Below are positions 30,331 through 54,378 of a stretch of 64,000 bases of DNA, in pieces; the stretch's first letter is position 1, and each line of letters starts with the position of its first letter. Both the position numbers and the translations under genes were made by a program. The notes under the pieces were generated by a model. It was not told where the DNA came from, searched no databases, and saw only the letters and a program-made list of their open reading frames with translations. Origin of the DNA: Caldithrix abyssi DSM 13497 (GTDB lineage Bacteria > Calditrichota > Calditrichia > Calditrichales > Calditrichaceae); the NCBI RefSeq assembly GCF_001886815.1, contig NZ_CP018099.1, forward strand, positions 4,834,501 through 4,898,500. The letters run 5' to 3'.

Positions 30331-31323
30331 ATGATGCTCACAACTTCCACACATACTTCTCGAAGGCAACCTAAATTGCTCGACCAGGTAAGGGCAGGGT
30401 TACGTTTAAAACATTACAGCTATCGTACGGAGCAGGCTTATATCCATTGGATCAAGCGCTTTATCTTTTTTCACAACAAACGGCATCCGTTGGAGATGGG
30501 GAAGCAGGAAATCAACGAATTTTTGACACATCTGGCAGTGAATGAAAAGGTTGCCGCTTCGACGCAGAATCAAGCCTTATGTGCTATTGTTTTTTTGTAC
30601 AAACATATACTTAACATTGATTTGGGTGATATTGGAGAAATTTACTGGTCAAAAAAGCCCCAAAAGTTGCCGGTTGTATTTACCCATAATGAAGCGAAGG
30701 CTGTGCTGGAAAAGCTTAATGGCGCCACCTGGTTAATGGCCATGCTGCTTTATGGAGCGGGATTGAGATTAAACGAGTGTTTGCAACTGCGCGTGAAAGA
30801 TATCGATTTTGAGTATAAGCAGATCACAGTCTGAAGCGGCAAGGGCGAGAAGGACCGGGTAACGCTATTGCCAGAAAAACTCATCATTCCATTAAAAAAA
30901 CAGATCGAATATGTAAAGAAATTACATGAATACGACTTAAAAAATGGATATGGTTCTGTTTACCTTCCTTATGCACTGGAAAGGAAATATCCTTTTGCAG
31001 GCAAGGAGCCTGGTTGGCAATTTTTATTTCCTGCGGCAAAAATATCGACAGATCCAAGAACGGGTATTAAGAGAAGACATCATATCCATCAATCTGTTTT
31101 ACAAAAGGCTGTAAAAAGAGCTATTCGAGAAGCGGGTATTACGAAACATGCCGGATGTCATACATTTCGTCATTCCTTTGCTACACGGCTTTTGGAAAAC
31201 GGCTATGATATACGCACCATTCAGGAATTGATGGGGCATAAAAATATTCAAACAACGATGATTTATACTCATGTGATAAAAAAAGGTGGGCTGGGAGTAA
31301 AAAGTCCTGCAGATGAAATTTAA
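30331..31323 (+). pseudogene. intI: Integron integrase (IntI-type tyrosine recombinase) with in-frame TGA
   Basis: The sequence matches IntI along its length: PKLLDQVRAGLRLKHYSYRT, YIHWIKRFIFFHNKRHP, LMAMLLYGAGLRLNECLQLR (catalytic Arg), then VKDIDFEYKQITV. At 30832-30834 a TGA occurs where the family normally has Arg (ITVRxGKGxKDR), so one CGA to TGA transition would explain it. The same frame continues [16 protein letters not shown] with no other damage. The IntI-specific extra segment is present ([20 protein letters not shown] then RTGIKRRHH). It ends with [34 protein letters not shown] (His, Arg, His, Tyr). The start is placed at the ATG pair 30331/30334, where homologs begin. The gene lies upstream of the cassettes and points the same way, the reverse of the classical layout. 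Readthrough of TGA cannot be excluded. Confidence 0.85.
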
Positions 31324-31811: not shown

Positions 31812-32181
31812 GTTAAACGTACATATTCGCCTTTATGGTCGCAGCAACTTAGATGAAATGTGAAACCTTTTTTGTTAAGATTAAATAACGGCACGGAGGA
31901 ACGGCAAAAAGTCCATTGAGTTGAAATAGCTTTTTTATTTAAGGTGTGGCCTTTTTGCCTTGTTCCAAAAACGTTGTAAAAAATTAGCGTTGCTGCTTGC
32001 CTGACGCAGGTTTGTTTGGTATTTTATCATCAAGCAGGTTAACGCATTTTGTTCAGGCGTTTAACCGGTCGCTCAACCAGACGCCAAAACGCGGGCGGCA
32101 ATTTGAAAGGGTGGTGTAGTTGTGCGCAATCCTGGTGGTTTGAAAATACAGTGAAATAATTTTGGCGCAGGTTAGCTCATC
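31812..32181 (+). repeat. Non-coding cassette 1 (370 bp), adjacent to attI
   Basis: It starts GTTAAACGTACATATTCGCC and ends at an attC from R'' GTTTAAC (32059) to R' (32182). Internal features are a 9-bp hairpin GGCAAAAAG/CTTTTTGCC (31903-31911, 31951-31959) and a possible promoter TTGCCT-N17-TATTTT (31997-32025). By eye it is identical to cassette 22 at 51304-51673, including private variants. No convincing ORF. Confidence 0.85.
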
Positions 32182-33338: not shown

Positions 33339-35711
33339 ATGAAAAAATCTCCAAAAAATATTTTTTTTGCATATGAAAGTGGACATCCTGAAAATAAGGA
33401 CGCGATTCATAAAGCAGTAAAAGAGTTTAACGCTCATCAAAAGAAATACAGAGCTAAGACATGGGAAGACCTTACTATTTCTGGAAAGGTTATTAACAAG
33501 ACAATATTTGATCAGATAGAAAAATGTGATATTTTTGCTTGTGATTTAACATATCTTAATCATAATGTACTTTTTGAACTTGGTTATGCGATTGGAAAAG
33601 GAAAAAAGTTATTAATATTTTTGAATAAAAATATACATAATGCTGTTGAACAATATCGAAGTTTTAAGATCTTAAGTAATATCGGATATGTCCATTTTGA
33701 AAACCATAAAGGTATTTTACGAGAACTACAAAATAAAGTAAATGTATATAATGTATTAATTTCTCAATTGGTAAATTTAAATCAAATTAAAAAGAATACT
33801 CATGATATTTTTTATATTTCTTCTAAAAGTAATACTCAAGCAGCCTTAGAGTTGTCAGATTATTTAAAATCGTTATCCTACAAAATAATAACTGATGATA
33901 CCAGCGAAGTAGAATATCAAACACTTATTTGGTATTTAACTAGCTTATTCAAGTCAAATCATATAATAATTCATCTTTTGCCAATTTCTTATATTAATAG
34001 TAATTATACAAATAGTGAATCTTCCTTTTTTGCAGGACTAGGACTTGGTTTAGGAAAGAAAACAATTCTAGTAGCTCAAAAGCCTTTTAAAGCTCCTATA
34101 GATTATTCTGATATTCTTATAGAATATGATGATGCAATAGATTGTTTAATTAAAATTGAAGATTGGATTAAAACTCATGTAGAACCTTTTAAAATTACTG
34201 GAAAAATAAAAAAACTTGATATACATAAGGAAGAAAAAAAACTAAATTTGATAAAATTAGGTATTGGTTGTGAAATCGCAGAAGAAGAAAAAAATGAATT
34301 ACTTAATTATTTTATCGAAATAGAGGCTTATAGAAAATCTTTAGAGAAGACAATATCAATTTTTGTTGGACAAAAAGGAACTGGTAAATCGGCTGTTTTT
34401 ATTAAATTATGTGATGATTTATCAAAGTATAATAAAAATTTTAACATTATTATTAAGCCAGATTCAGATGAGCTATTAGATAACGTAGAGCTTTCAAATT
34501 TATATAACAATGAAAGGTCCAAAAAATCATTTTTATTTACAGTTTGGGCATATGTAGTATATGCTAAACTAATAGAACTAATTTTTTCAAAAATAAAAAA
34601 TAAAAACAAACCATATTATTCTCCTTCTAAAGAAGAAAAGGCAATAATAGAATTTAGAAATAAATATAAAGATGAACTCCATCTAAATTTTTATGGCGCA
34701 ATTTTAAAATTAAGCAAAATTATTGGTGACGATAGTTTAATAAATAATCCTTCGTTGTTAAATCATATTTATGATTATTTTATAACAGAAGCTAAGAATA
34801 TAATCAGAGAATATTTTAAAAATGAAAAATATTTTTCTGTAAACATATTGGCCGATAATTTGGATAAAACTTGGGATTTTAAAAATGATCTTTCACTCCA
34901 ATCTGATATGATTTTAAGTCTTTTTGAATTTAGTAGTAAATTAGTAAAAGATATAAAAGCAAAAAATGAGTCAGAGATAAAAGTTAATATTACAATTTTC
35001 CTCAGGAAAGATATTTTTGATTTTATTCTAAAAAACTCACGTGAACCTGATAAATTAACAGTTAGAGCATACGAAATTAGTTGGGAAAAAAATGAAAAGA
35101 TTTTACGCAAGTTGATAGAAAAGAGATTTGAATATAATTTAAATCTTAAATCTAAAGAAGAAATTGAAAAAGTTTGGATTGATTATTTTGACTTTGGTAA
35201 TAATAGACATCCATATGATACAATAAGAAAGATAATTGTATCTAGACCACGTGATGCAATATTTTTTATGTCAAAATTATTTGAGTCCGCTGTTAATGAA
35301 GACCATTCAAAAGTTAATAAAAAGGATTTAGATTATGCCATTGATGCGTATTCTAATTTTTTACAAAAAAATATTGTAGCTGAAATGAAAGCTGAATTTC
35401 CAAGAATAGATGAACTTTTTAATAAATTATTTTTAGAATATATCAATGAAAAAATAGAATTTGAAAGATTTAAACAGTTGGTTCTGTCTCTAAATTATAC
35501 AAAAGAGAAATTTGAAAAACTAATAGAAATCTTGTTTAAAAAGAAATTTATTGTTTGTTTAGTAGATGGTGAAAAAGGGATTATCAATAATTTAAGCACA
35601 CTTAATTATAAATTATCAGAAAAAAAATACTTATTTTTTCCTAAAAATAAAATTTTTGTAATCCCAAACCCACAGGAATATTTATTAAAACAGTGGAAAA
35701 AAATAGAATAA
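33339..35711 (+). CDS. TIR-like/Sll1717-type P-loop ATPase, putative defence protein
   Basis: This 790-residue protein is the only gene of cassette 33291-35808. Residues 1-100 have a TIR-like or deoxyribosyltransferase-like fold: KNIFFAYESGHPENKDAI, ISGKVINKTIFDQIEKCDIF, CDLTYLNHNVLFELGYAIGK, with Glu80 in FELGY as candidate catalytic residue. A second similar but weaker domain spans about 155-265 (DIFYISSKSNTQAALELSDY ... SFFAGLGLGLGKKTILVAQK). A P-loop NTPase follows, with Walker A GQKGTGKS at 344-351 and a Walker-B-like VNILADNLD at 501-509, resembling the Sll1717 family. The C-terminal 200 residues are helical. This sensor-ATPase-effector layout is typical of abortive-infection ATPases; if TIR-like, the N terminus could cleave NAD. 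Ribosome-binding signal weak. AT-rich and clearly foreign. Confidence 0.7.
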   Translation: MKKSPKNIFFAYESGHPENKDAIHKAVKEFNAHQKKYRAKTWEDLTISGKVINKTIFDQIEKCDIFACDLTYLNHNVLFELGYAIGKGKKLLIFLNKNIHNAVEQYRSFKILSNIGYVHFENHKGILRELQNKVNVYNVLISQLVNLNQIKKNTHDIFYISSKSNTQAALELSDYLKSLSYKIITDDTSEVEYQTLIWYLTSLFKSNHIIIHLLPISYINSNYTNSESSFFAGLGLGLGKKTILVAQKPFKAPIDYSDILIEYDDAIDCLIKIEDWIKTHVEPFKITGKIKKLDIHKEEKKLNLIKLGIGCEIAEEEKNELLNYFIEIEAYRKSLEKTISIFVGQKGTGKSAVFIKLCDDLSKYNKNFNIIIKPDSDELLDNVELSNLYNNERSKKSFLFTVWAYVVYAKLIELIFSKIKNKNKPYYSPSKEEKAIIEFRNKYKDELHLNFYGAILKLSKIIGDDSLINNPSLLNHIYDYFITEAKNIIREYFKNEKYFSVNILADNLDKTWDFKNDLSLQSDMILSLFEFSSKLVKDIKAKNESEIKVNITIFLRKDIFDFILKNSREPDKLTVRAYEISWEKNEKILRKLIEKRFEYNLNLKSKEEIEKVWIDYFDFGNNRHPYDTIRKIIVSRPRDAIFFMSKLFESAVNEDHSKVNKKDLDYAIDAYSNFLQKNIVAEMKAEFPRIDELFNKLFLEYINEKIEFERFKQLVLSLNYTKEKFEKLIEILFKKKFIVCLVDGEKGIINNLSTLNYKLSEKKYLFFPKNKIFVIPNPQEYLLKQWKKIE

Positions 35712-35714
35712 ATC

Positions 35715-35815
35715 AGCTAACACCGGCTTCAACTCTGACGCGAGCACGCGGAACATGAATCGTTAAGTGTAAGTTTTTCAAGCGTGCTCGCGCAGGTTAA
35801 GCCTAATCGTTAAAC
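35715..35815 (+). other. attC of the ATPase cassette
   Basis: R'' AGCTAAC (35715) is the reverse complement of the cassette start GTTAGCT (33291). The arms ACGCGAGCACGCGG and AGCGTGCTCGCGCAGG pair with an extrahelical base. Confidence 0.8.
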
Positions 35816-35849
35816 GTACATATTCGCCTTTATGGTCGCAGCAACTTAG

Positions 35850-37745
35850 CCCATCTTGAACACTAAAACGATTTAAGTTATTTAAAAACAACATGTCGTT
35901 CTTTTTTATTACCACTACAATATTTAAATTCTTATCTTTTTCATACCTAATGGCTTTGGCTTGATCTTAAATGCCTGCGCCATTAAATAATGAATCGCCT
36001 CCGGTTCGGTCGTATCTCTTATAACTAATAAATCTCCTTTCTGAGTTTTCATCTCCACGCTTACTCGCTGCTGTACGGAAAGTAATTCACGAATGGTTGT
36101 CCAGCGATGATAAACGCCTGCATCATGTAATTGTTTTTGAAGACTTATCAATACATGAAAGGCTAAAATCGAAATGAAAATATGCCCTTCAATGCGTTTA
36201 TCCTTCTGGTGAAAATTAGGCCTTAAGCCTAATTCACTCTTCAACGAGCGAAATCCATCCTCCACATCCGTTAAACTGATGTAGAGCTGCCAAATCTCAC
36301 GATCCGTTAAATCCAGACGACTCGTCCGTAAATAATACGTGCCGGAAAATCGATCATCCATCTTTTGCTCATCTTTTATCTTCCAGCTGATCTCTGTCAC
36401 GATACCATTGTGATGCTTAACCGTAATATCATAAAAATAGGCCACTTTTGCATGGCGTTCCTTTATACGGCCAATGCGTTCTAAAACCTTGGGATATTTC
36501 TTCGTGCCTCGTTTCTTGTGCAAACTCTCCGCCGCATATTTCAACTCCGCCTCAAAGCGCTGCTGATGAAATTGTCGAATGGCTTCCTCTTTCTTTTGCC
36601 TTGAGGCGCTGCGACAGTATAAATAAAGCTCTTTATCCTTACGGTAAAGATAGGCTTCCACTTTATGGCGTTGATCGTGATTAATCTCTTTAAAAGCATT
36701 TTCTTCGATCTCGATTTCCGGTTTACTGCGTGAGACAACCAGATAGTCGTGTCCACGCTTTGTGATCAGTTGCAAGTTCTCTTCTGTGGCAATCCCGGCA
36801 TCTAAAATAATCAATTTCCTGACTTTGCCGCCTATCGTATCCAGAATTTTAGACAAAGTCTCTGGTTCGGAAACATTGCTAGAGAAAAGACGACTCTCCT
36901 TGGGGAATCCATCCTCATCCAATACCAGGCCTAAAGTAACCAGGGGCATATCGTGACGCTTATCTTTACTACGTCCGCGAGCCTTGAGTTCACTGGTACG
37001 ACTACTCTCAAAATACGTATTGGTTAAATCGTACAGGATGATCTTTTCCTGCAAGGAAAATAACAGACGCTCTTGCTCTACTAAACCATTCTCGATTTTG
37101 TCCTTATGTTCTAAACGATCAACAGTTCGGCCAGTTTAATATCCTTCTCCTTAAAGCCCAGCTTTTTTAAAAGTTCATTGAACTTAAGCTTTCTTAACAT
37201 CATCAAACTGATGTATTCGCCTCCTATACTGCTAGCATCTCTGAATTTGACAGAGCCCGTAAAAATGGTCTCGGTTTCCTGTGGGCTTTCTTTTTTTTCT
37301 ACCTTTTCTTGTTTTAGTTTGTTTTGAATTAAAAGCGAGGCATAGCGCTGGGCTAATTGTTCAATTTGCTCGTCCACTTCGATCAGTGAAGCTTGTCCGC
37401 TTATGATCTCTTCGATGCGATTGGCAAGTGTTTTCCATTGGTCTTTAGGAATGGTAAGCTTGCCCAGGTTGAGCAATTTTCTTTGTCTTGGGCCTTTTTC
37501 AGTACGATAGGATTCGACCAATTGATGGTAAACGAAGGTTTTATCGTACCCTTTATTCTTTTTTGTGACTTCTTTAATAAACATGTTCAAATATAATCAT
37601 ATCAGCCTATTAAGTCAAGGGAAAAACCAATATAGTATGGGGCACTACAACGACATCTCGAAAACTCGATCCAAAAAAACCAATAACTTACAAAAACCGA
37701 AGGTGGAAATTTGGTGATTTGGGCTTAAATTTTGTTCAAGATGGG
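35850..37745 (-). mobile_element. IS1634-type insertion sequence, copy B (1,896 bp, internally deleted)
   Basis: It has the same CCCATCTTGAACA ends as copies A and C and a TTAG duplication (35846-35849, 37746-37749). It is 136 bp shorter than its siblings because of a deletion within the transposase gene near 37113. Confidence 0.9.
35924..37590 (-). pseudogene. Broken IS1634-family transposase, copy B
   Basis: The reading frame is split. The N-terminal part (37590 down to 37111, 159 codons) and the C-terminal part (37054 down to 35924) match the 600-residue transposase at 25091-26893. Between them 136 bp are missing: the sequence goes directly from TTATGTTCTAA to ACGATCAACAGTTCGG. The loss is not a multiple of three, so the frame shifts. 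The catalytic Asp and Glu residues remain in the C-terminal part. The element could move only with a transposase from copies A or C. Confidence 0.9.
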
Positions 37746-38108
37746 TTAGAGGAAATGAAAAGCCTTTTTTGTTAAGATTAAATAACGGCACGTAGGAGCG
37801 GCAAAAAGTCCATTGAGTTGAAATAGCTTCTTTATTTAAGGTGTGGCCTTTTTGCCTTGTTCTGAAGACGTTGTAAAAAAATAGCGTTGCTGCTTGCCTG
37901 GCGCAGGTTTGTTTGGTATTTTGTCATCAAGCAGGGTAACGCATTTTGTTCAGGCGTTTAACCGGTCGCTCAACCAGACGCCAAAACGCTGGCAGCAATT
38001 TGAAAGGTTGGTGTAGTTGTGCACTGCCCTTCTGGTCTGAAAATACGGTGAAATAAGTTTGGCGCTGGTTAGCTAATCGTTATACCACGATAGAGTATTG
38101 GAAACTGT

Positions 38109-38943: not shown

Positions 38944-39045
38944 GTATAACAACGGCTTCAACACGGACGCTGCCACGCGTGGCATTACAGCGTCCGATGG
39001 AAGTTCAGTGGGGCGTGGCAGCGCCGGTTAAGCAAATCGTTAGGG
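38944..39045 (+). other. attC of the DUF3800 cassette
   Basis: R'' GTATAAC (38944) complements the cassette start GTTATAC (38079). The arms GGACGCTGCCACGC and GCGTGGCAGCGCC pair with an extra A. It is the same attC type as that of cassette 15 (43567). Confidence 0.85.
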
Positions 39046-39066
39046 AAAAACCACTTTTAACTTATT

Positions 39067-40002
39067 ATGAGAAGACTTTGTCCTGAATATGGTCGTAAAT
39101 TAATTTTGTCTTTTGTGTTTTTTATTATATTAACTTTATCACTAATATTTATAATAATATATGATTCAAAATATGATTTCCAATTAATTATTAGCCTACT
39201 GTTATTATTTCCATTAATAATAAACGTTTTATTTTTTAAATTAATAAGATGTATTGAAATTAATGAAAAATCACAAACAGTAATATTTAAATACTATGTT
39301 AGGCCAAATAAAGTTGTACATTTCAATGAAATATTGGGCTTAACATCTAAAAATATTAAAACTAAAAAGGGAAATATCAATTATGAATTAATTAAAAATA
39401 AGTTTGAAGTCAGAAAACTGTTCATAGATAATTTTGGTAAAAAATTATTGACCACCTATAATGAAAATTTTGAAAATAATAATCCTGAAGAAATAATCAT
39501 TTATGACGGTAAAGAAAAACTCTCTGAAAAATTATTGGCATATTTTCTTTCAATTTTGTTTTTAATATTTATTTTATATGTATTGTTTGTGCTTCCCGCT
39601 TATTTCTTAATATTTATATTGATAAAGCCATTTTATTTAAAATATTTGATAGTAATAATTTATGAAATTATTGCAGTTTACTTTTTAATTATTAAAACGA
39701 ATTTAATTAAAATTATTGTTAATAAATTTAAATATAGACATTATTCTGAGAAAATTATTCCGCAAGGGATTTTAACAAATACTAATGGGGAAAATATACT
39801 ATTTACTTGGGATAAGATTGACAGGATAGATAGAATTCGTTTAAGTGATAACAAATATACAGAACATGAGCATGAATTTATCATATATTTAAAGAACGGT
39901 GATGAAATTTTCTGTTTTGATGACTACAGGTGGAGTAAGTATAAAAAGATTCTCAAATGGTCGCATAATACCATTAAAGAAAGTCGTATAATACAACAGT
40001 AG
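39067..40002 (+). CDS. Membrane protein with paired TM helices and PH-like domains, copy 1
   Basis: This 311-residue protein has two membrane hairpins: residues about 11-66 (LILSFVFFIILTLSLIFIII, then LIISLLLLFPLIINVLFF) and about 156-210 (LLAYFLSILFLIFILYVLFV, LPAYFLIFILI, YLIVIIYEIIAVYFLII). Each is followed by a soluble beta-rich module (CIEINEKSQTVIFKYYVRPN; NILFTWDKIDRIDRIRLSDN followed by EFIIYLKNGDEI) that resembles bacterial PH-like domains. No known family was identified. It is the only gene of cassette 39039-40123. An exact copy of the whole cassette is at 50219-51303. A membrane or envelope-stress role is possible but unsupported. Confidence 0.65.
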   Translation: MRRLCPEYGRKLILSFVFFIILTLSLIFIIIYDSKYDFQLIISLLLLFPLIINVLFFKLIRCIEINEKSQTVIFKYYVRPNKVVHFNEILGLTSKNIKTKKGNINYELIKNKFEVRKLFIDNFGKKLLTTYNENFENNNPEEIIIYDGKEKLSEKLLAYFLSILFLIFILYVLFVLPAYFLIFILIKPFYLKYLIVIIYEIIAVYFLIIKTNLIKIIVNKFKYRHYSEKIIPQGILTNTNGENILFTWDKIDRIDRIRLSDNKYTEHEHEFIIYLKNGDEIFCFDDYRWSKYKKILKWSHNTIKESRIIQQ

Positions 40003-40009
40003 TCATATT

Positions 40010-40130
40010 CCCTAACAAATCGCTCAACACGGAATTTGCCACGCGGGGCATGAATTTGCCCAGTGAGAGCGTTTTTGCCAAGTGAAAGTTTTTGTGCGCG
40101 TGGCAAATCCGGTTAGCTCCGTCGTTAAAC
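40010..40130 (+). other. attC of membrane-protein cassette, copy 1
   Basis: R'' CCCTAAC complements the start GTTAGGG (39039). The arms GGAATTTGCCACGC and GCGTGGCAAATCC pair with one extra A. This attC type is shared with the toxin-antitoxin (41557) and HNH-like (53419) cassettes. Confidence 0.85.
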
Positions 40131-40960: not shown

Positions 40961-40969
40961 GTGAATACT

Positions 40970-41248
40970 ATGAGAACAATAAATTTTGAACAAGATATAA
41001 AATCTTTATCTGAATTCAGAGCGAATGCTTCAAAACTATTAAAACAAATAAATAATACCCGTCGTCCTTTAATAATAACTCAACATGGAAAAAGTAAAGC
41101 CGTATTAATGGATGTAACTGATTATCAGAATCTAATTGAAAAATTAGAAATATTAGAAGATATTTATGTTTCAGAAAAACAGATAGCAGAAGGGAAAGGG
41201 ATTCCGCATAATCAAGTTAAGGAAGAATTGCTAAAAAGATTTAAATAA
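40970..41248 (+). CDS. Phd/YefM-family antitoxin
   Basis: AAGGTG stands 7 bases before the ATG at 40970; the GTG at 40961 is part of that signal and not preferred. The product (92 residues) begins MRTINFEQDIKSLSEFRANA and carries ITQHGKSKAVLMDVTDYQNL, the Phd/YefM DNA-binding fold pattern. The C-terminal helix with acidic and basic residues (EILEDIYVSEKQIAEGKGIP) would wrap around the toxin. It should neutralise the ParE/RelE-like protein encoded directly after it (the ATG overlaps the last base of its TAA) and repress the operon via the palindrome upstream. Confidence 0.88.
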   Translation: MRTINFEQDIKSLSEFRANASKLLKQINNTRRPLIITQHGKSKAVLMDVTDYQNLIEKLEILEDIYVSEKQIAEGKGIPHNQVKEELLKRFK

Positions 41249-41541
41249 TGAAAATTATCTGGTCACCGCGTTCAAAGGTTCAATTGATAGACATTGCGGA
41301 ATATATTTCTTTAGACAAGCCAGAAGCAGCTCATAGATGGTTAGAAAATGTATTTCAAGAAGTTGAAAAGCTAAAATTATTTCCAAAGTCAGGCCGTAAA
41401 GTACCAGAAATAAATCAAGAAGATATACGAGAAATTATATTTGGTAATTATAGGATAATCTACAAAATTGAAATAGATTTAATAATTATTGCTTCAGTTC
41501 GTCATGGTAAACAATTATTAGATAAGGATGAATTAAAATAA
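41248..41541 (+). CDS. RelE/ParE-superfamily toxin
   Basis: This 97-residue toxin begins MKIIWSPRSKVQLIDIAEYI and continues DKPEAAHRWLENVFQEVEKL, FPKSGRKVPEI, EIIFGNYRIIYKIE and IASVRHGKQLL. The arrangement (N-terminal helical hairpin, GRxVPE, YRIIYxI, V-R-H) is that of ParE-like members, which target gyrase, rather than ribosome-dependent RelE; this needs structural support. It overlaps the antitoxin stop by one base. Toxin-antitoxin cassettes are known stabilisers of sedentary integron arrays. Confidence 0.88.
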   Translation: MKIIWSPRSKVQLIDIAEYISLDKPEAAHRWLENVFQEVEKLKLFPKSGRKVPEINQEDIREIIFGNYRIIYKIEIDLIIIASVRHGKQLLDKDELK

Positions 41542-44485: not shown

Positions 44486-45001
44486 ATGGAAAACAACTAC
44501 AAATTTTCTTTAAGAATTGGTGAAATTGAAATTTCATTGGAAGGTAGTGCAGAATTTATTTCTGAACATTATAAAATAATCAAGGATGATATGATAGCAT
44601 ATTTGGAATTATTAAAAAAAATTCCCAAACCAACTGTTGATATTTCTAAAAAAGAATCTGAAACAGTTTCAACTGAAGATAATTTAGAAAATGAATTGCC
44701 AGAAACTTTTGGCGAATGGCTAACCCGTGTTCCAAAAGAAATTTCTGATACTGATAAAGCTTTATTGGCTGGATATTTTCATCAAATCAATTCTGAAAAT
44801 AACGTTTTTAAAGTTAGAGATTTAACAAAAACACTTAAAGATCACGGTATTAAATTATCTAATCCTTCAAATCTCATAAAACATGCAGCCAAATCTAAAA
44901 AATTCATTTTTCAGCAATCAAAAGAAGGCAATCAAATAAACTATAGATTTTCAAGAGAAGGTGAAGAATACATACAATCTCTTTTAAAAACAAGTAGTTA
45001 A
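44486..45001 (+). CDS. Unknown partner of the HEPN-like protein
   Basis: GGAGAATGAATA precedes the ATG. The 171-residue product starts with a beta-rich segment (NNYKFSLRIGEIEISLEGSA, EFISEHYKII). An acidic linker of about 30 residues follows. The C-terminal helical domain (TDKALLAGYFHQINSENNVF, KVRDLTKTLKDHGIKL, YRFSREGEEYIQSLL) resembles the winged-helix domains of small regulators found beside uncharacterised defence proteins. No family was recognised. The close spacing (12 bases) to the HEPN-like gene within one cassette suggests they work as a pair, for example effector and regulator. Confidence 0.55.
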   Translation: MENNYKFSLRIGEIEISLEGSAEFISEHYKIIKDDMIAYLELLKKIPKPTVDISKKESETVSTEDNLENELPETFGEWLTRVPKEISDTDKALLAGYFHQINSENNVFKVRDLTKTLKDHGIKLSNPSNLIKHAAKSKKFIFQQSKEGNQINYRFSREGEEYIQSLLKTSS

Positions 45002-45003
45002 AC

Positions 45004-45133
45004 ATATAACCATTGGCTCAACTTGACCGCAGTGGCTGTGCGGTTTTTCAAGTTTAGAAGCCCGCATAAAGTTTTCTGGTTATTCAAAGTCTGTGCCTCG
45101 CAATCCAGCGGCAAGTTAGCCAAAACGTTATGG
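45004..45133 (+). other. attC of the HEPN-pair cassette
   Basis: ATATAAC complements GTTATAT at 43663. The site differs in internal sequence from the common types (TTGACCGCAGTGGCTG... and GCAATCCAGCGGCAAG), indicating a different source. Confidence 0.7.
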
Positions 45134-45181
45134 GTATTGATTGAGAATCAAATTAAACTAACATTTCATAGGAGCTAAATC

Positions 45182-46045
45182 ATGAAAGGTTTAAAAGTTA
45201 TCTTAAGTTTTGTCTTCGTTTGTCTATTATTATTCTCTTGTGATAGCGATAGAAGCAAATCTAATTACTTAAAACAATCAAAAAGCACATACCAGAGAAT
45301 TTTGGAATCTGGTAAAATTAGGGTTGGATATATTTCATATCCACCGAGCTTTATCAAGGACCCTAATACTGGAAAATTTTCAGGTATATTTCACGAAGTG
45401 CTTCAGGAAATTGGCAAGAAACTACAATTGAAAATTGAATACACAGAAGAAGTGGGGTGGGGTTCAATGATTGAAGCAATCAATTCAGGAAGAGTTGATT
45501 TGATTTGCACAGGTGTTTGGCCTACAACTGAAAGGGGCAAACATGTTGATTTTACTAAGCCTCTTTATTACAGCACAGTAAGAGCTTACGTTAGGTTCAA
45601 CGATAATAGATTTGATGGAAATTTAACCAAAATAAATAATCCTGATATAAGAATTTCTTCTATCGATGGAGAAATGACATCCATAATTGCTAAATTTGAT
45701 TTTCCAAAAGCTAAAGAAGTTAGTTTGACCCAGATGAATGATGTTTCACAAGTGTTATTAGAAGTTTCAAGTGGAAAGGCTGACATAACTTTTGTTGAAC
45801 CTGCAATAGCATTAGAATATATGAGCAAAAATCCTGGTAAAATCAAAGAAGTTAAAAATGTTCCACCTTTAAGAGTTTTTCCAAATACTATGATTGTAGG
45901 CAAAGGTGAAGTCGAACTACTATCAACTATTAATATTGGTATTGACGAATTGGCTAATAATGGTTTTATCGACAAAATAGTCTCAAAGTATGAGAAGTTT
46001 CCTGGTTCTTTTCAGAAGATAGCTTTACCATTTAGAGAAGAATAA
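45182..46045 (+). CDS. Amino-acid-type ABC transporter substrate-binding lipoprotein
   Basis: AGGAGCTAAATC precedes the ATG. The 287-residue protein has a lipoprotein signal (LSFVFVCLLLFSCDS, Cys20). The class 3 solute-binding fold is evident: ILESGKIRVGYISYPPSFIK, FSGIFHEVLQEIGKKLQLKI, WGSMIEAINSGRVDLICTGV, WPTTERGKHVDFTKPLYYS. It should bind a polar amino acid or related compound outside the membrane and deliver it to the permease encoded next. It is the first gene of the four-gene cassette 45127-48673, with spacers of only 3-4 bases between genes. Gln/Arg-type ligands are typical, but the ligand cannot be predicted here. Confidence 0.85.
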   Translation: MKGLKVILSFVFVCLLLFSCDSDRSKSNYLKQSKSTYQRILESGKIRVGYISYPPSFIKDPNTGKFSGIFHEVLQEIGKKLQLKIEYTEEVGWGSMIEAINSGRVDLICTGVWPTTERGKHVDFTKPLYYSTVRAYVRFNDNRFDGNLTKINNPDIRISSIDGEMTSIIAKFDFPKAKEVSLTQMNDVSQVLLEVSSGKADITFVEPAIALEYMSKNPGKIKEVKNVPPLRVFPNTMIVGKGEVELLSTINIGIDELANNGFIDKIVSKYEKFPGSFQKIALPFREE

Positions 46046-46049
46046 ACAT

Positions 46050-46715
46050 ATGTCAGTATTCAAAATTATACAAGAATATCAAGAAGGTTTTATTAAAGGT
46101 ATTGGAGTTACCTTCCAATTATGTCTAATTATTTGGTTAAGCGGCTTCTTCATTGGTGGATTACTCGGCGTCTTGGGTTCTAAATATAAACTCGGAATTG
46201 GAATACCCTCAAAAATATTATCTTTTGTCCTTTCAGGTATTCCTATTTTAGTTTTTCTTTTTTGGTTACATTATCCAGCTCAGGAGTTGTTGCAAATTCA
46301 AATTGACCCATTCATAACAGCATCTGTCACTCTTTCAATTGTAAATATTTTTGCTGTAGCTGATATTGTTAGGAATGCAATGGAAAATTTACCAAACCAA
46401 TATATTGAAGTTGCAAAAGTCTGTGGTATTCCAATTACTAGGCGTCTTTGGAAAATCGATATTCCATTGATTTTTAGACATGCTATATCACCCTTTATTA
46501 TTGTTCAAGTGAATATGTTGCATATGACTTTATTTGCAAGTTTAATATCCGTTGATGAAATATTTAGAGTAACTCAACGTGTCAATGCTATTATCTATAA
46601 ACCAGTAGAAATTTATACAGCATTAGGTATATTCTTTTTGATGATATCATTACCATTAAATGGCTTAGCTCTGTGGTTAAAAAACAAATACGCTAGAGAT
46701 ATTTCTGAAAGATAG
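46050..46715 (+). CDS. Amino-acid ABC transporter permease (HisM/GlnP type)
   Basis: This 221-residue integral membrane protein has about five helices. It opens with FIKGIGVTFQLCLIIWLSGF and FIGGLLGVLG, typical of HisM/GlnP permeases. The cytoplasmic coupling loop reads NAMENLPNQYIEVAKVCGIP followed by ITRRLWKIDIPLIFRHAISP, which is the EAA-like motif region (E-V-A-K-x-x-G-I). It would form the channel with the ATPase encoded three bases downstream. A single permease gene implies a homodimer. The start follows the binding-protein stop by four bases. Confidence 0.85.
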   Translation: MSVFKIIQEYQEGFIKGIGVTFQLCLIIWLSGFFIGGLLGVLGSKYKLGIGIPSKILSFVLSGIPILVFLFWLHYPAQELLQIQIDPFITASVTLSIVNIFAVADIVRNAMENLPNQYIEVAKVCGIPITRRLWKIDIPLIFRHAISPFIIVQVNMLHMTLFASLISVDEIFRVTQRVNAIIYKPVEIYTALGIFFLMISLPLNGLALWLKNKYARDISER

Positions 46716-46718
46716 ATC

Positions 46719-47342
46719 ATGCTTAAAGGAATTAACATTTCAAAATCATTTGGCAAAAAAAAAGTTCTTGACAATATAAATATTGAAATAAATCAAGGAA
46801 AAGCAGCTATTATTTTGGGCCCAAGTGGTTGTGGGAAAACAACCTTATTGCGTTCTCTTTCATTACTTGATTATCCAGATAGCGGTAAATTAATAATTGA
46901 TGATTTAGAATATACATTCCCCTCACGAAATAACAATATTAAATTACCTTATCCCAGAGTAACAGTTGTTTACCAGCAATTGTTTTTGTGGCCGCATCTG
47001 ACCAATAAAGAAAATATAATACTTGCCGTAAAAGGAAAAGATTATCATGCTGATTTTGAAAGGCTAGTTGAATTTTTAGATATGCATGATTTTATAAATA
47101 ATTACCCTAATCAATCATCATTAGGTCAGAAACAAAGAATTGCTATTGCAAGAGCATTAATACTAAGACCTAAATATATTCTTTTTGATGAAATAACTTC
47201 ATCGCTAGATATTGTCCAAATAGAAAATATAATTGAAATAATTAATAATCTAAAAAAAGACAACATAGGGATTTTTTTAATAACCCATAATATGGATGTT
47301 GCAAATAAAGTTGGAGATAAGAAAATATATTTAAAGGGCTGA
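46719..47342 (+). CDS. ABC transporter ATPase (GlnQ/HisP type)
   Basis: This 207-residue ATPase is short for the family (usually about 240). Walker A is GPSGCGKTTLLRSL; the Q-loop region is VVYQQLFLWPHLT. The signature region is SSLGQKQRIAIARALI (LSGGQ replaced by SLGQK, as in part of the GlnQ group). Walker B is YILFDEITSSLD with Glu; the H-loop is ITHNMD. All motor elements are therefore present, but the region after the H-loop is shortened. It would power uptake of the amino-acid-type substrate. It starts 3 bases after the permease and is followed by the membrane-anchored binding-like protein. Confidence 0.85.
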   Translation: MLKGINISKSFGKKKVLDNINIEINQGKAAIILGPSGCGKTTLLRSLSLLDYPDSGKLIIDDLEYTFPSRNNNIKLPYPRVTVVYQQLFLWPHLTNKENIILAVKGKDYHADFERLVEFLDMHDFINNYPNQSSLGQKQRIAIARALILRPKYILFDEITSSLDIVQIENIIEIINNLKKDNIGIFLITHNMDVANKVGDKKIYLKG

Positions 47343-47346
47343 GTAT

Positions 47347-48570
47347 ATGGTCAGACTACAAGAAAAGGTTTTTTATCAAAAACTAGATTGGCAAATAGGA
47401 ATTGCGATTACTTTAGCTCTAACTGGGTTGGGTATTTGGGCTTCAATTGACAAACTGTCATTTGTAAGTTTTTTCAAATGGATCTACAAAAATATTTTTC
47501 TTTCAACATATTTTTGGTGGTTTCTTGTAACCTTGTTTGTCGTTTTGTTCAGAAGGCATAAAGTTTATAAACAAAAGGAAAAGATTGAGTCATTAGAAGA
47601 AGAATTAACAGAAGCAAAAGAAGAGATATTAATACTAAAATCTAAAACAACACCGTTTATTAAGCGCTGGGAAGAGATACTTGAAAATGGTATAAGGTTT
47701 GGTTCGCTTCATTATCCTCCAATGTTGGACTTTGATAATGATGGGGATCCAATTGGAATTGGTATAGATATATTAAAAATTATTTTTAACGGTAAAATTA
47801 ATAAGGAATATTATAGAGTTTCTTGGCAAAATCTAGTCAAAGTATTATACGAAAAAGATAATAACAATAAATTCATAATGGATATTATTGCTACACCAAT
47901 TTTTGAGACTAATGAACGTTCAAAACTTCTTTCTTTTTCACTGCCATTATTTTATTCAGAAATAGGCTTATACTACAATTGCGAAAACAAGTATTTTAAA
48001 AACTTAGAACCTAAAACATTCGAGCAAGCGATAGATTTCATTAATAATATAAACAACTTGAATGTTATTTGTATTGAAGGTGAATTATCTCATAGAATGA
48101 TTAAAAAGCATTTTGAAGGAAATATTTCAAGAATTGCTAGTAAAAACGAATTGTCTATTCAAGATTTATTGGCTACCGTAATTGATGATTCTATTAACTC
48201 TGATATTGTCTTTGCTGAAACTTACCAAGCAGAAAAATTGATTCAAAGTAAAGTAGCAAAAGGAGAAAACAGATTTGCAAAACTGAAAAATCTATTTAAA
48301 GAACGGCAATTACTATATCCAGTCGTATTTGCTATGCGTAGAGAAGATTATGTTCTTAAGAATTATATTAATCTAAAACTAATAGAACTTGACGGTCCAG
48401 GCTCAGGAATTATTAAATTAATTAAAGCAAGTCTTTCATCGCTAGGTGAGAACATTCATGATGAAGATTTGAAAAAATATTTTATACGAGAATACTCTAA
48501 TCTTACAAACTCACAAACAAAACAAATAAAAGCTCAGGTAGTGCAGCCCATAACAAAAGGTTCAACCTGA
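47347..48570 (+). CDS. Membrane-anchored substrate-binding-like protein, fourth gene of the ABC cassette
   Basis: This is a 407-residue protein. Residues about 17-32 and 50-68 are membrane helices (IGIAITLALTGLGIWASI; YFWWFLVTLFVVLFRRH). They are followed by a coiled coil (KQKEKIESLEEELTEAKEEI) of about 25 residues. From about 110 to 370 comes a class 3 binding-protein-like domain (GIRFGSLHYPPMLDFDND, IGIGIDILKIIF, RSKLLSFSLPLFYSEIGLYY). It could be a second ligand sensor acting on the transporter or a signalling partner without a known output domain; no kinase or GGDEF domain is present. Its last codons (AQVVQPITKGST) lie inside the attC: the R'' box is at 48548. This overlap is tight packing typical of cassettes. 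Confidence 0.6.
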   Translation: MVRLQEKVFYQKLDWQIGIAITLALTGLGIWASIDKLSFVSFFKWIYKNIFLSTYFWWFLVTLFVVLFRRHKVYKQKEKIESLEEELTEAKEEILILKSKTTPFIKRWEEILENGIRFGSLHYPPMLDFDNDGDPIGIGIDILKIIFNGKINKEYYRVSWQNLVKVLYEKDNNNKFIMDIIATPIFETNERSKLLSFSLPLFYSEIGLYYNCENKYFKNLEPKTFEQAIDFINNINNLNVICIEGELSHRMIKKHFEGNISRIASKNELSIQDLLATVIDDSINSDIVFAETYQAEKLIQSKVAKGENRFAKLKNLFKERQLLYPVVFAMRREDYVLKNYINLKLIELDGPGSGIIKLIKASLSSLGENIHDEDLKKYFIREYSNLTNSQTKQIKAQVVQPITKGST

Positions 48571-48680
48571 CCCGCCTCGCACCGGCGAGTTTCGGAAGTT
48601 ATGACGAGTAATCACGTTTTGTGCTATTCATAAGGTATTGTTTTTTAATGTCGGCGGGCAGGTTAACCTTGTCGTTAAAC
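48548..48680 (+). other. attC of the four-gene ABC transporter cassette
   Basis: CCATAAC (within CCCATAAC) complements the cassette start GTTATGGG (45127). The arms AACCTGACCCGCC and GGCGGGCAGGTT pair with an extra A. The site overlaps the end of the coding sequence. Confidence 0.85.
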
Positions 48681-49043
48681 GTACATATTCGCCTTTATGG
48701 TCGCATCAACTTAGAGGAAAAGAAAGACCTTTTTTGTTAAGATTAAATAACGGCACGTAGGAGCGGCAAAAAGTCCATTGAGTTGGAATAGCTTTTTTAT
48801 TTAAGGTGTGGCCTTTTTGCCTTGTTCTAAAGATGCTGTAAAAAATTAGCATTGCTGCTTGCATAGCGCAGGTTTGTTTGGTATTTTGTAGTAAAGTTGG
48901 GTAACGCATTTTGTTCAGGCGTTTAACCGGTCGCTTAACCAGACGCCAAAACGCGGGCGGTGCTTTGAAAGGTTGGTGTAGTTGTGCGCTGCCCTGCTGG
49001 TTTGAAAATACGGTGAAATAATTTTGGCGCTGGTTAGCTCATC
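48674..49043 (+). repeat. Non-coding cassette 18 (370 bp)
   Basis: Copy with variants TCGCATCAACTTAG, TTGCATAGCGCAGG and GTAGTAAAGTTGGGTAACG. It precedes a cassette starting GTTAGCCCGC. Confidence 0.85.
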
Positions 49044-49088
49044 GTTAGCCCGCTCGTGCAATAAGCAGTAGCGTTTTATGGAGAAAAT

Positions 49089-50218: not shown

Positions 50219-50246
50219 GTTAGGGAAAAACCACTTTTAACTTATT

Positions 50247-51182
50247 ATGAGAAGACTTTGTCCTGAATATGGTCGTAAATTAATTTTGTCTTTTGTGTTT
50301 TTTATTATATTAACTTTATCACTAATATTTATAATAATATATGATTCAAAATATGATTTCCAATTAATTATTAGCCTACTGTTATTATTTCCATTAATAA
50401 TAAACGTTTTATTTTTTAAATTAATAAGATGTATTGAAATTAATGAAAAATCACAAACAGTAATATTTAAATACTATGTTAGGCCAAATAAAGTTGTACA
50501 TTTCAATGAAATATTGGGCTTAACATCTAAAAATATTAAAACTAAAAAGGGAAATATCAATTATGAATTAATTAAAAATAAGTTTGAAGTCAGAAAACTG
50601 TTCATAGATAATTTTGGTAAAAAATTATTGACCACCTATAATGAAAATTTTGAAAATAATAATCCTGAAGAAATAATCATTTATGACGGTAAAGAAAAAC
50701 TCTCTGAAAAATTATTGGCATATTTTCTTTCAATTTTGTTTTTAATATTTATTTTATATGTATTGTTTGTGCTTCCCGCTTATTTCTTAATATTTATATT
50801 GATAAAGCCATTTTATTTAAAATATTTGATAGTAATAATTTATGAAATTATTGCAGTTTACTTTTTAATTATTAAAACGAATTTAATTAAAATTATTGTT
50901 AATAAATTTAAATATAGACATTATTCTGAGAAAATTATTCCGCAAGGGATTTTAACAAATACTAATGGGGAAAATATACTATTTACTTGGGATAAGATTG
51001 ACAGGATAGATAGAATTCGTTTAAGTGATAACAAATATACAGAACATGAGCATGAATTTATCATATATTTAAAGAACGGTGATGAAATTTTCTGTTTTGA
51101 TGACTACAGGTGGAGTAAGTATAAAAAGATTCTCAAATGGTCGCATAATACCATTAAAGAAAGTCGTATAATACAACAGTAG
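50247..51182 (+). CDS. Membrane protein with PH-like domains, copy 2
   Basis: Identical along all 311 codons, and apparently at every base, to 39067-40002. It again has membrane hairpins at about 11-66 and 156-210 and two soluble beta-rich modules. The whole cassette (50219-51303) repeats 39039-40123, including its attC, 11,180 bp further along. The identity in such AT-rich DNA implies a recent event. Function remains unknown; two doses of the gene may be expressed from different positions relative to promoters. Confidence 0.65.
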   Translation: MRRLCPEYGRKLILSFVFFIILTLSLIFIIIYDSKYDFQLIISLLLLFPLIINVLFFKLIRCIEINEKSQTVIFKYYVRPNKVVHFNEILGLTSKNIKTKKGNINYELIKNKFEVRKLFIDNFGKKLLTTYNENFENNNPEEIIIYDGKEKLSEKLLAYFLSILFLIFILYVLFVLPAYFLIFILIKPFYLKYLIVIIYEIIAVYFLIIKTNLIKIIVNKFKYRHYSEKIIPQGILTNTNGENILFTWDKIDRIDRIRLSDNKYTEHEHEFIIYLKNGDEIFCFDDYRWSKYKKILKWSHNTIKESRIIQQ

Positions 51183-51189
51183 TCATATT

Positions 51190-51310
51190 CCCTAACAAAT
51201 CGCTCAACACGGAATTTGCCACGCGGGGCATGAATTTGCCCAGTGAGAGCGTTTTTGCCAAGTGAAAGTTTTTGTGCGCGTGGCAAATCCGGTTAGCTCC
51301 GTCGTTAAAC
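51190..51310 (+). other. attC of membrane-protein cassette, copy 2
   Basis: Identical to the site at 40010-40130, with R'' CCCTAAC matching the cassette start GTTAGGG at 50219. Confidence 0.85.
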
Positions 51311-51673: not shown

Positions 51674-51690
51674 GTTAGCAGGATAATTAA

Positions 51691-52590
51691 ATGCATGTTG
51701 ATAATGTAAAACAAATAAAAAAAGACCATATAAAAAATATCGCCTTTGTAGTAGGTAATGGAATAAATCGGTATGGCTTGATAGAAGGAAATTCATCTTG
51801 GGATCAATTACTCCTTGAATTATGGAGAAAAGTCATCGGCGAATATAAAAGCGATGTTCCATTGGGAATATCGTTGACCGAGTTTTATGATATTTTGGAA
51901 TTGAATAACACAAATAATGGTTCTACTATAAATTTACAAAAAGAATTCTGTAACCTAATGAATAAGTGGAGTTTTCAAAAACACCATGTAAATTTTATCA
52001 AATTTGCCATGCGATTTAACACTCCGGTATTAACAACTAATTTTGACAATACATTTCAAAAAGCAGGAAGATTAAATTTATACAGAACTTCAACTGGAGG
52101 ATTTACTGATTTTTATCCTTGGGAATCTTATTATAGTTTATCGAGATTGAACTATCCCACTGATGGATTTGGTGTCTGGCACATAAATGGGATGCAAAAA
52201 TATTTTCGTAGTATTCGACTTGGTCTAACTCATTATATGGGATCAGTAGAGCGTGCTCGTAGAATGATCCATAAAGGAAATGAAGAAAGATTATTTGCAG
52301 GTAAAAATGTACACAATTGGCCAGGAGCAAAAACTTGGCTTCATATTGTTTTCAATAAATCTCTTTTTATTTTTGGGCTTGGTTTAGAAGAAAATGAAGT
52401 ATTTTTAAGATGGCTGTTGATTGAGAGAGCAAAATATTTCAATAAGTTTAAAAAAAGAAGAATGCAAGGTTGGTACATTGCCAAAAATGGCAGCACAAGC
52501 CGTGGCAAAAAGTTATTCTTGAATCAAATTGGAATTAAAGTAATAGAACTTTCTAACTATAAGGATATTTATGAAAATCTTTGGAATTAA
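51691..52590 (+). CDS. SIR2-like NAD-binding defence protein
   Basis: AGGATAATTAA precedes the ATG. This 299-residue protein has SIR2 hallmarks: the NAD-binding GNGINR at residues 22-27 (in IAFVVGNGINRYG), TPVLTTNFDNTFQKAG with TTNFDN at 115-120, WHINGM with the candidate catalytic His164, and KSLFIFGLGLEENEVFLRWL. Bacterial SIR2-domain proteins of this type cleave NAD upon phage infection, alone or with partners such as Argonaute, HerA or STAND proteins; no partner is in the cassette. The length suggests the SIR2_2 type with little beyond the catalytic domain. It is one of several potential abortive-infection genes in the array. Confidence 0.8.
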   Translation: MHVDNVKQIKKDHIKNIAFVVGNGINRYGLIEGNSSWDQLLLELWRKVIGEYKSDVPLGISLTEFYDILELNNTNNGSTINLQKEFCNLMNKWSFQKHHVNFIKFAMRFNTPVLTTNFDNTFQKAGRLNLYRTSTGGFTDFYPWESYYSLSRLNYPTDGFGVWHINGMQKYFRSIRLGLTHYMGSVERARRMIHKGNEERLFAGKNVHNWPGAKTWLHIVFNKSLFIFGLGLEENEVFLRWLLIERAKYFNKFKKRRMQGWYIAKNGSTSRGKKLFLNQIGIKVIELSNYKDIYENLWN

Positions 52591-52593
52591 TTC

Positions 52594-52665
52594 TGCTACA
52601 AAGCGCTCCACCTGACCGCTATTCCGCTGGCGCTCCATAGCGGCAGGTGAGCTTGGGCGTTAGGA
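52594..52665 (+). other. attC of the SIR2 cassette, compact type with imperfect R''
   Basis: The R'' box reads TGCTAC where TGCTAAC is expected from the start GTTAGCA (51674): one A is missing. The arms CACCTGACCGCTAT and ATAGCGGCAGGTG are intact with an extra A. At 72 bp it is the shortest here and resembles attC sites of Proteobacteria. Confidence 0.75.
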
Positions 52666-52689
52666 GCAAAAAATAGAGTAAACATCTCC

Positions 52690-53412
52690 ATGAAATGTAA
52701 ATTATGTCATAATGATAAAGAATTAAGAAATTCGCATATAATACCTGAATTTTTTTATAAACCACTTTATGATAAAAGGCATAGATTTAATGTAATACCT
52801 TTGAATGAAGAACAAAAATTCAGATATGAACAAAAAGGTTTACGTGAAAGATTATTATGTGATGATTGCGAAAATAAATTAAGTAAATGGGAAGATTATG
52901 TAAGACGAATATTTTATGGTGGAAAAGAAATTTTAATTACAAATGGAAATCCTATTAAAATAGAAGGACTAGACTACGCTAAATTTAAATTTTTTCAGTT
53001 ATCATTACTATGGCGCGCATCTATTTCAGAACTGGATTTTTTTAAAGGCGTTAGTTTAGGCCCGCATGAAGAAAAAATTCGACAAATGTTACTAAATGAA
53101 GATCCTGGTAGTAAATTAAAATATCCTTGCCTTTTTATTATGGTTCTTATGGAACCAAATAAAGTATTAGACGATTTTATTTATCCACCAATTTTTTTAA
53201 GAATAAATGGCCATAGAACATATCGTTTTATTTTTGGTGGTGGATTTTGGATATATTTTGTTTCAAGTCATACAAAAATGTTAAATTCTTCAAAAATATC
53301 AAAATTTTTTTTGAATGAAAATGGACTATTGCTCATTCCATTAATACCAGCGAATCGTATTGATTTTTTTTTAAATTTGGCTAAAGATTTTGTAAAATAT
53401 AATAAAAATTAA
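52690..53412 (+). CDS. HNH-like protein with zinc-binding cysteines
   Basis: This 240-residue protein has the N-terminal CKLCHNDKELRNSHIIPEFF (Cys-x2-Cys followed by S-H-I-I-P) and RERLLCDDCENKLSKWE (Cys-x2-Cys). The four Cys and the His resemble a degenerate HNH/zinc-ribbon nuclease motif seen in hypothetical proteins often tagged 'HNH endonuclease'. The rest is AT-rich with FIFGGGFWIYFVSS near the end, without membrane helices. Whether it cuts DNA is uncertain; the usual second His/Asn of HNH is not evident. It is the sole gene of cassette 52659-53532. Confidence 0.6.
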   Translation: MKCKLCHNDKELRNSHIIPEFFYKPLYDKRHRFNVIPLNEEQKFRYEQKGLRERLLCDDCENKLSKWEDYVRRIFYGGKEILITNGNPIKIEGLDYAKFKFFQLSLLWRASISELDFFKGVSLGPHEEKIRQMLLNEDPGSKLKYPCLFIMVLMEPNKVLDDFIYPPIFLRINGHRTYRFIFGGGFWIYFVSSHTKMLNSSKISKFFLNENGLLLIPLIPANRIDFFLNLAKDFVKYNKN

Positions 53413-53418
53413 AATGGC

Positions 53419-53539
53419 TCCTAACAAAACGCTAAACACGGAATTTGCCACGCAGGCAACGAAATTGCCCAGTGAGATAGTCTTCGGCAAGTGAAAAGTT
53501 TTTGGCGCGTGGCAAATCCGGTTAGCTCAATCGTTAAAC
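53419..53539 (+). other. attC of the HNH-like cassette
   Basis: TCCTAAC (within GCTCCTAAC) complements the cassette start GTTAGGAGC (52659). The arms GGAATTTGCCACGC and GCGTGGCAAATCC are the shared type seen at 40010 and 41557. Confidence 0.85.
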
Positions 53540-54274: not shown

Positions 54275-54378
54275 GTTAAACGTACATATTCGCCTTTATG
54301 GTCGCAGCAACTTAGAGGAAATGAAAAGCCTTTTTTGTTAAGATCAAATAACGGCACGTAGGAGCGGCAAAAAGTCCA
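54275..54378 (+). repeat. Non-coding cassette 27, truncated (104 bp)
   Basis: Copy that ends abruptly inside the internal hairpin (after AAAAAGTCCA); unrelated sequence follows. The attC and the start of the next cassette are missing, pointing to a deletion. Confidence 0.8.

Follow-up and report, generated by a model that had tools for sequence, protein, structure and literature searches.

Gene Organization of the Operon

The genome of Caldithrix abyssi, published as 4.98 Mb with 45.1% G+C (PMC5317091), is a single contig of 4,978,541 bp. The stretch analyzed here, referred to as the window, comprises 64,000 nucleotides of this contig (positions 4,834,501-4,898,500). An integron integrase gene, intI, is located in the window and is followed at its 3' end by an array of cassettes, 25 of which were placed between positions 31812 and 54275. 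The word 'integron' was not found in the text of the genome paper (PMC5317091). Ten of the 25 cassettes possess genes, and the other 15 are copies of one cassette of ~370 bp that is devoid of open reading frames (ORFs). The longest cassette in the array carries a four-gene ATP-binding cassette (ABC) transporter operon and is the focus of this study (Table 1).

The four ORFs of the original prediction were recovered at 45182-46045, 46050-46715, 46719-47342, and 47347-48570, with intergenic gaps of 4, 3, and 4 bases, respectively. The earlier assignments as binding lipoprotein, permease, ATPase, and binding-like protein agree with Pfam matches to SBP_bac_3, BPD_transp_1, ABC_tran, and again SBP_bac_3. 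Moreover, a good ribosome binding site, AGGAG, is positioned upstream of gene 1, as proposed previously. A clear promoter was not found in the 55-bp leader of the cassette and expression of the operon therefore would have to come from upstream. A promoter scan of the cassette returned 21 sites compared to 18.5 expected and was uninformative.

Table 1. Positions in the window of the operon cassette, its genes and recombination sites, and associated features of the array (E, expect value).
Feature	Position	Strand	Evidence and remarks
Whole operon cassette	45127..48674	+	3,547 bp; largest among the 25 in the array; boundary table
R' core site (G|TTATGGG), GTTATGGG, left cassette boundary	45127..45134	+	Sequence; L013 homology begins inside at 45131
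attC of preceding cassette: R'' ACATATAAC, L box TTGACCGC..GCGGCAAGTT	45001..45133	+	Its R' opens the operon cassette
Gene 1: family-3 solute-binding lipoprotein, 287 aa	45182..46045	+	PF00497 (SBP_bac_3), E 2.2e-25
Gene 2: permease, HisM/GlnP (PAAT) type	46050..46715	+	PF00528 (BPD_transp_1), E 4.3e-11; five hydrophobic segments
Gene 3: ABC ATPase, 207 aa	46719..47342	+	PF00005 (ABC_tran), E 3.4e-29; ArtP/GlnQ-like
Gene 4: SBP_bac_3-like domain after two putative transmembrane helices (~16-34 and 50-68), a Lys/Arg cluster, and a coiled coil	47347..48570	+	PF00497
attC of operon cassette: R'' CCCATAAC, L'' GGTTCAACCTGACCCGCC, L' GGCGGGCAGGTTAACC, R' GTTAAAC	48547..48680	+	Score 39
Next cassette, one ORF-less 370-bp copy	48674..49044	+	Directly after the operon cassette
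Integron integrase gene of the array, intI	30331..31323	+ (cassette strand)	TIGR02249, 464 bits; otherwise full length; one TGA inside

Boundaries of the Cassette

The original prediction located an R' site at the start of the operon and its complement inside the last gene. Both were confirmed, as GTTATGGG occupies 45127-45134 and CCCATAAC occupies 48547-48554 within gene 4, the stop codon of which (48568-48570) falls in the L'' box. The right-hand R' sequence, GTTAAAC, is positioned at 48674, and other cassettes adjoin the operon cassette on both sides. The R'' element of the operon cassette mirrors the first eight bases of the same cassette (GTTATGGG/CCCATAAC). This pattern is general in the array: R'' is complementary to the cassette's own first 7-11 bases in 24 of the 25 cassettes, including that under study. 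A match between R'' and the 5' end of its own cassette is expected because closure of the cassette circle predicts such complementarity. The attC site at the left end similarly displays a 9-nt mirror of the head of the preceding cassette, and its L box is paired when the bottom strand is folded (centroid structure).

Sites for attC recombination were sought across the whole window using R''/L''/L'/R' signatures with a cut-off score of >=34. All sites that attained this value are confined to the array (33168-54281), with none elsewhere in the window. The scan is imperfect: the genuine site at 45001-45133 fell under the cut-off. A further attC site inside the operon, which would conflict with a single cassette, was looked for and none was detected; the best internal site scored 16 compared to 39 for the site at the operon end. 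For the latter site, folding of the bottom strand yielded z = -2.1, and two bases of the L box were extrahelical. Thus, in the predicted structure of 48547-48680 the R and L boxes are paired and extrahelical bases are present, as in an integron cassette attC. A first attC finder, in which R'' was required to be the reverse complement of R', missed genuine sites and produced AT-rich chance matches inside the operon. As R' belongs to the next cassette, this finder was dropped in favor of the L-box scan.

The unit might instead have arisen from two or more cassettes, for example one with genes 1-3 and another with gene 4, that became joined when an internal attC was lost. The apparent length of a cassette doubles where one attC is missed, a warning given previously (PMC5371416), and a cassette at 51674-53533 in the same array, which is the sole exception to the mirror rule with a match of only 5 nt and which probably consists of two cassettes fused through attC loss, resembles such an event. 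However, fusion would break the correspondence that is observed between the far-end R'' of the operon cassette and its own head, no residual attC persists inside the operon (maximum score 16), and the identical gene order in the second copy described below requires that any fusion predates the split of the two copies. Fusion is very unlikely in view of these features.

A Close Copy of the Operon in Another Genome

The same four genes, in the same order and with gaps of 3-7 bases, are present at 91.4% DNA identity on a 3,829-bp contig (JAADFW010000163.1; hereafter L013) of a metagenome-assembled genome (MAG) that was binned as Chlorobiota. The copy likely resides in another phylum, with the caveat that the bin assignment of a short contig is uncertain. 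Homology extends across window positions 45131-48538, that is, from inside the R' core to 8 bp before R'' (48547), and suggests that the four-gene unit travels as a block. Synonymous divergence between the two copies is 0.16-0.44. Ratios of nonsynonymous to synonymous divergence (dN/dS) are 0.076, 0.049, 0.068, and 0.206 for genes 1-4, respectively. These values, which span 0.05-0.21, show that selection has maintained each of the four proteins in the two lineages.

The 8-base mirror, the lack of an internal attC in the scan, and the L013 homology limits at the cassette ends together establish that the operon is one cassette. Thus, three independent lines, comprising the mirror rule, the attC scan and fold, and the limits of homology with L013, uphold the original prediction of a four-gene ABC transporter operon as a single gene cassette of ~3.5 kb.

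The surroundings of the L013 copy differ from those in C. abyssi. Directly to the left, the unit is bordered by a group II intron, of which the 3' end is present (RF00029, L013:221-297, E 3e-12) together with a truncated reverse transcriptase N-terminus (PF13655, E 8e-5, under the gathering score). As the intron 3' end coincides with the R' site, the intron sits inside the equivalent of the R' core. To the right, an unrelated sequence that includes a direct repeat of 11 bp (TTGACCGGCAA) begins 8 bp before the R'' position; searches with this sequence gave no identification. An attC is not visible in the 3.8-kb contig. The unit could therefore have been moved in the L013 lineage by a group II intron or insertion element, with attC added later in the C. 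abyssi lineage. The location of the intron 3' end exactly at the left boundary, the unrelated sequence and repeat on the right, and the absence of a visible attC fit with this scenario, as does the proposal that group IIC-attC introns aid cassette formation (PMC7923331). Nevertheless, insertion of introns into attC is documented, usually in the opposite orientation but with one top-strand case in cassette orientation (PMC7923331), and insertion into a pre-existing cassette boundary simply explains the left end. As the L013 contig also is only 3.8 kb in length, mobilization by non-integron means is considered improbable.

Genes 1-3 Specify a Putative Polar-Amino-Acid-Type Importer

The product of gene 1 bears a hydrophobic signal stretch followed by the lipobox LFSC with Asp at position +2. 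Asp at this position retains lipoproteins in the inner membrane in E. coli. The best relatives in the PDB are AncCDT-1, cyclohexadienyl dehydratase, AncQR, and the amino-acid solute-binding protein 4ymx: the nearest solved structures are amino-acid receptors and cyclohexadienyl dehydratases derived from them. The carboxylate-binding Arg of the family is kept in the products of both genes 1 and 4, and the usual Asp is replaced by Glu in both proteins. The gene 2 permease matches GlnP (E 5e-16) and scores 35.3 bits with TIGR01726 for which the cut-off is 42.2. The ATPase encoded by gene 3 has intact Walker A (GPSGCGKTT), Walker B (LFDE), and H-loop (TH) motifs, and SSLGQ in place of the signature LSGGQ.

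The best reading of genes 1-3 is a predicted polar-amino-acid-type (PAAT) importer assembled from a family-3 receptor, a permease, and an ATPase. Systems of this type (GlnHPQ, ArtPIQM, EhuABCD; TCDB 3.A.1.3) share the SBP_bac_3 receptor, the BPD_transp_1 permease with a GlnP-like N-terminal part, and the ArtP/GlnQ-like ATPase. As in PAAT importers, the cassette holds one permease gene the product of which presumably forms a homodimer. In contrast, scores of all three proteins far below equivalog cut-offs, the SSLGQ signature, a short ATPase C-terminus, the exchange of Asp for Glu, and the additional gene 4 set the cassette apart from the known systems. The operon also was considered as an anti-phage defense system. 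This possibility was rejected as the only PADLOC matches were generic P-loop/ATPase matches for gene 3, with none for genes 1, 2, or 4.

Architecture and Topology of the Gene 4 Protein

The SBP_bac_3 match of gene 4 (E 2e-7) scores 31.3 bits compared to a gathering threshold of 26.4, and the protein is 28% identical to the product of gene 1 (E 5e-12). On sequence grounds, gene 4 is a diverged duplicate of a family-3 receptor that has been fused to a two-helix anchor and a coil. The L013 homolog differs in possessing an extra coiled-coil repeat and another C-terminus. Two predicted helices and the SBP_bac_3-like domain support the original description of a membrane-anchored binding-like protein, which requires refinement in that the Lys/Arg cluster makes a cytoplasmic location of the domain more likely than a periplasmic one. 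Specifically, six Lys/Arg residues that are kept in L013 follow helix 2, compared to 2-3 on the N-terminal tail and inter-helix loop. By application of the positive-inside rule to these counts, the binding domain is placed in the cytoplasm where it may act as a sensor of imported ligand.

We assign somewhat less than even odds to a serious rival of the cytoplasmic sensor, namely a second periplasmic receptor that is membrane-anchored and that feeds the same permease, akin to the tandem binding domains of GlnPQ. Relatives of the transporter in one MAG are accompanied by multiple binding proteins, in tandem sets of four and three, Arg191 and Glu291 of the gene 4 protein occupy ligand-binding positions as in gene 1, and the coiled coil could serve as a spacer. 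However, the two predicted helices leave both ends of the protein on one side of the membrane, and the excess of Lys/Arg after helix 2 assigns the binding domain to the cytoplasm by the positive-inside rule. The more far-reaching proposal, that gene 4 specifies a new kind of cytoplasmic accessory subunit of ABC importers that gates the transporter on sensing imported ligand, such that importer and regulator travel between phyla as one cassette, is tentative and on balance unlikely. The protein adds a binding-domain architecture for which no close relative was found in the sequences searched beyond the C. abyssi and L013 loci.

Origin and Relatives of the Operon

The distribution of the proteins was assessed in 40 genomes of the phylum (C. 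abyssi and 39 others). The gene 2 permease and gene 4 were found only in the cassette, with neither present elsewhere in C. abyssi, and gene 1 had one weak match outside the cassette. The cassette is 31% G+C compared to 45.1% for the genome (PMC5317091), and the importer unit looks foreign to C. abyssi by these sequence measures. A tblastn search of plasmids with gene 4 gave no match, and whole-cassette DNA produced only ATPase motif matches with plasmids. Viral contigs scanned with single proteins (genes 1, 2, and 4) likewise gave no match. More distant relatives on plasmids form operons of permease, ATPase, and receptor genes, with arginase and amidase genes alongside.

Homologs of genes 1-3 occur in an alphaproteobacterial MAG (JAEUKP010000004.1; contig of 65,905 bases) at two loci, L014 and L035, in which the gene 1 homologs are 34-42%, the permease 54%, and the ATPase 50-52% identical to the cassette proteins. 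L014 includes four tandem homologs of gene 1 (37-42% identity) in a cluster with sdh genes and the 54% identical permease, and L035 includes three further receptors with the 50-52% identical ATPase. Thus, in contrast to the cassette, the genes are chromosomal, tandem receptors are beside sdh genes, ATPase and permease are in separate clusters, and no attC was seen. The four family-3 binding proteins of L014 (L014:5893-9263) are positioned between sdhC/sdhD-like and sdhA-like genes, names that derive from sequence reading. With regard to the search for the four-gene set outside integrons that was suggested originally, relatives of genes 1-3 reside in ordinary chromosomal loci, and a gene 4 homolog was not seen there. 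The L035 ATPase has the signature SSVGQ that matches SSLGQ in gene 3, of which it is a 51% identical relative. As SSxGQ is common to both proteins, the motif is a family trait and not a sign of decay.

The occurrence of the family in normal chromosomal loci elsewhere is compatible with an ordinary chromosomal transporter that merely happens to adjoin attC-like repeats in C. abyssi. This explanation is scarcely credible when cassettes flank the operon on both sides, the rule relating cassette head and R'' is obeyed, no family member other than the weak match to the binding protein was seen in the 39 other genomes of the phylum, and the ends of the unit are the same in L013.

Proposed Function and Mobility of the Cassette

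Overall, the data are interpreted as an integron cassette with a complete PAAT-type ABC importer operon as cargo, a reading to which we ascribe a probability of about 0.8. The gene 1 lipoprotein, anchored at the periplasmic face of the inner membrane, would bind an amino acid or similar carboxylate and pass the ligand to the gene 2 permease, acting as a homodimer. Transport would be powered by the gene 3 ATPase, likewise as a homodimer. The gene 4 protein most likely would sense the same ligand as gene 1, probably from the cytoplasmic side, and thereby tune the transporter. An integron integrase would have captured the unit at its folded bottom-strand attC, with subsequent movement as a block between unrelated bacteria.

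Several observations weigh against this interpretation. The permease and ATPase are far under all NCBIfam equivalog cut-offs, and the residue that contacts the alpha-amino group is Glu where Asp is usual so that the substrate may be something other than a standard amino acid. The predicted topology of gene 4 depends on the charge count. Two AlphaFold models of the protein are of low confidence (pLDDT, the per-residue confidence score, of 50 in one of them) and only the helical N-terminus was taken from them, and the top Foldseek matches, which are family-3 binding proteins, are non-significant (best E 0.016). Moreover, intI of the array is interrupted by an in-frame TGA at 30832-30834. A profile search of the genome revealed no other match above the integrase cut-off. 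Excision by the strain's own integrase therefore is not expected and ongoing excision is doubtful, unless through readthrough, a sequencing error, or an enzyme in trans. With the integrase of the array interrupted, the cassette now probably is fixed in this strain, barring readthrough of the TGA or activity of an enzyme in trans.

Gene cassettes mostly hold one short gene. The components of the operon cassette are of known kinds, and a cassette with a complete ABC importer was not found described in a partial literature search. Amino acid transport is among the most under-represented functions in integron-associated genes, with an odds ratio of 0.18 (PMC7370490). A complete and co-adapted importer under purifying selection in two copies would signify that a multi-protein metabolic machine can be transferred by integrons in a single step.

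Other Features of the Array

The array is similar to sedentary chromosomal integrons of the Treponema type and those of Vibrio with promoter cassettes (PMC11014356) in that intI is on the cassette strand and many ORF-less cassettes are located between gene cassettes. Unlike in these integrons, the ORF-less cassette of C. abyssi is one sequence in 15 copies, and the integrase gene includes a stop codon. The 15 copies are 89-100% identical and interspersed with gene cassettes, with a truncated sixteenth at 54275. One copy (35809-38079) is split by an insertion sequence with a transposase ORF at 35924-37054 (DDE_Tnp_1). Promoter activity is known for gene-less cassettes in Vibrio and Treponema (PMC11014356), and the ~370-bp cassette may represent a promoter or spacer cassette of local origin. 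A second cassette locus, apparently a relic, lies far from the main array (G000:C1:1104598-1112931) and includes a truncated integrase along with fragments of the ORF-less cassette.

Among the gene cassettes, one of 1,085 bp is present twice, at 39039-40124 and 50219-51304, and the first 300 bases, which were compared, are identical. Cassette genes at 33339-35711 and 51691-52590 have weak TIR-like and SIR2-like matches and possibly are anti-phage defense cargo. Another cassette carries a Phd/ParE toxin-antitoxin pair (40961-41541). Separately, the palindrome AACCGTTGAAACGGTT, a sequence described for C. abyssi (PMC5317091), is present in 29 exact copies across the genome.

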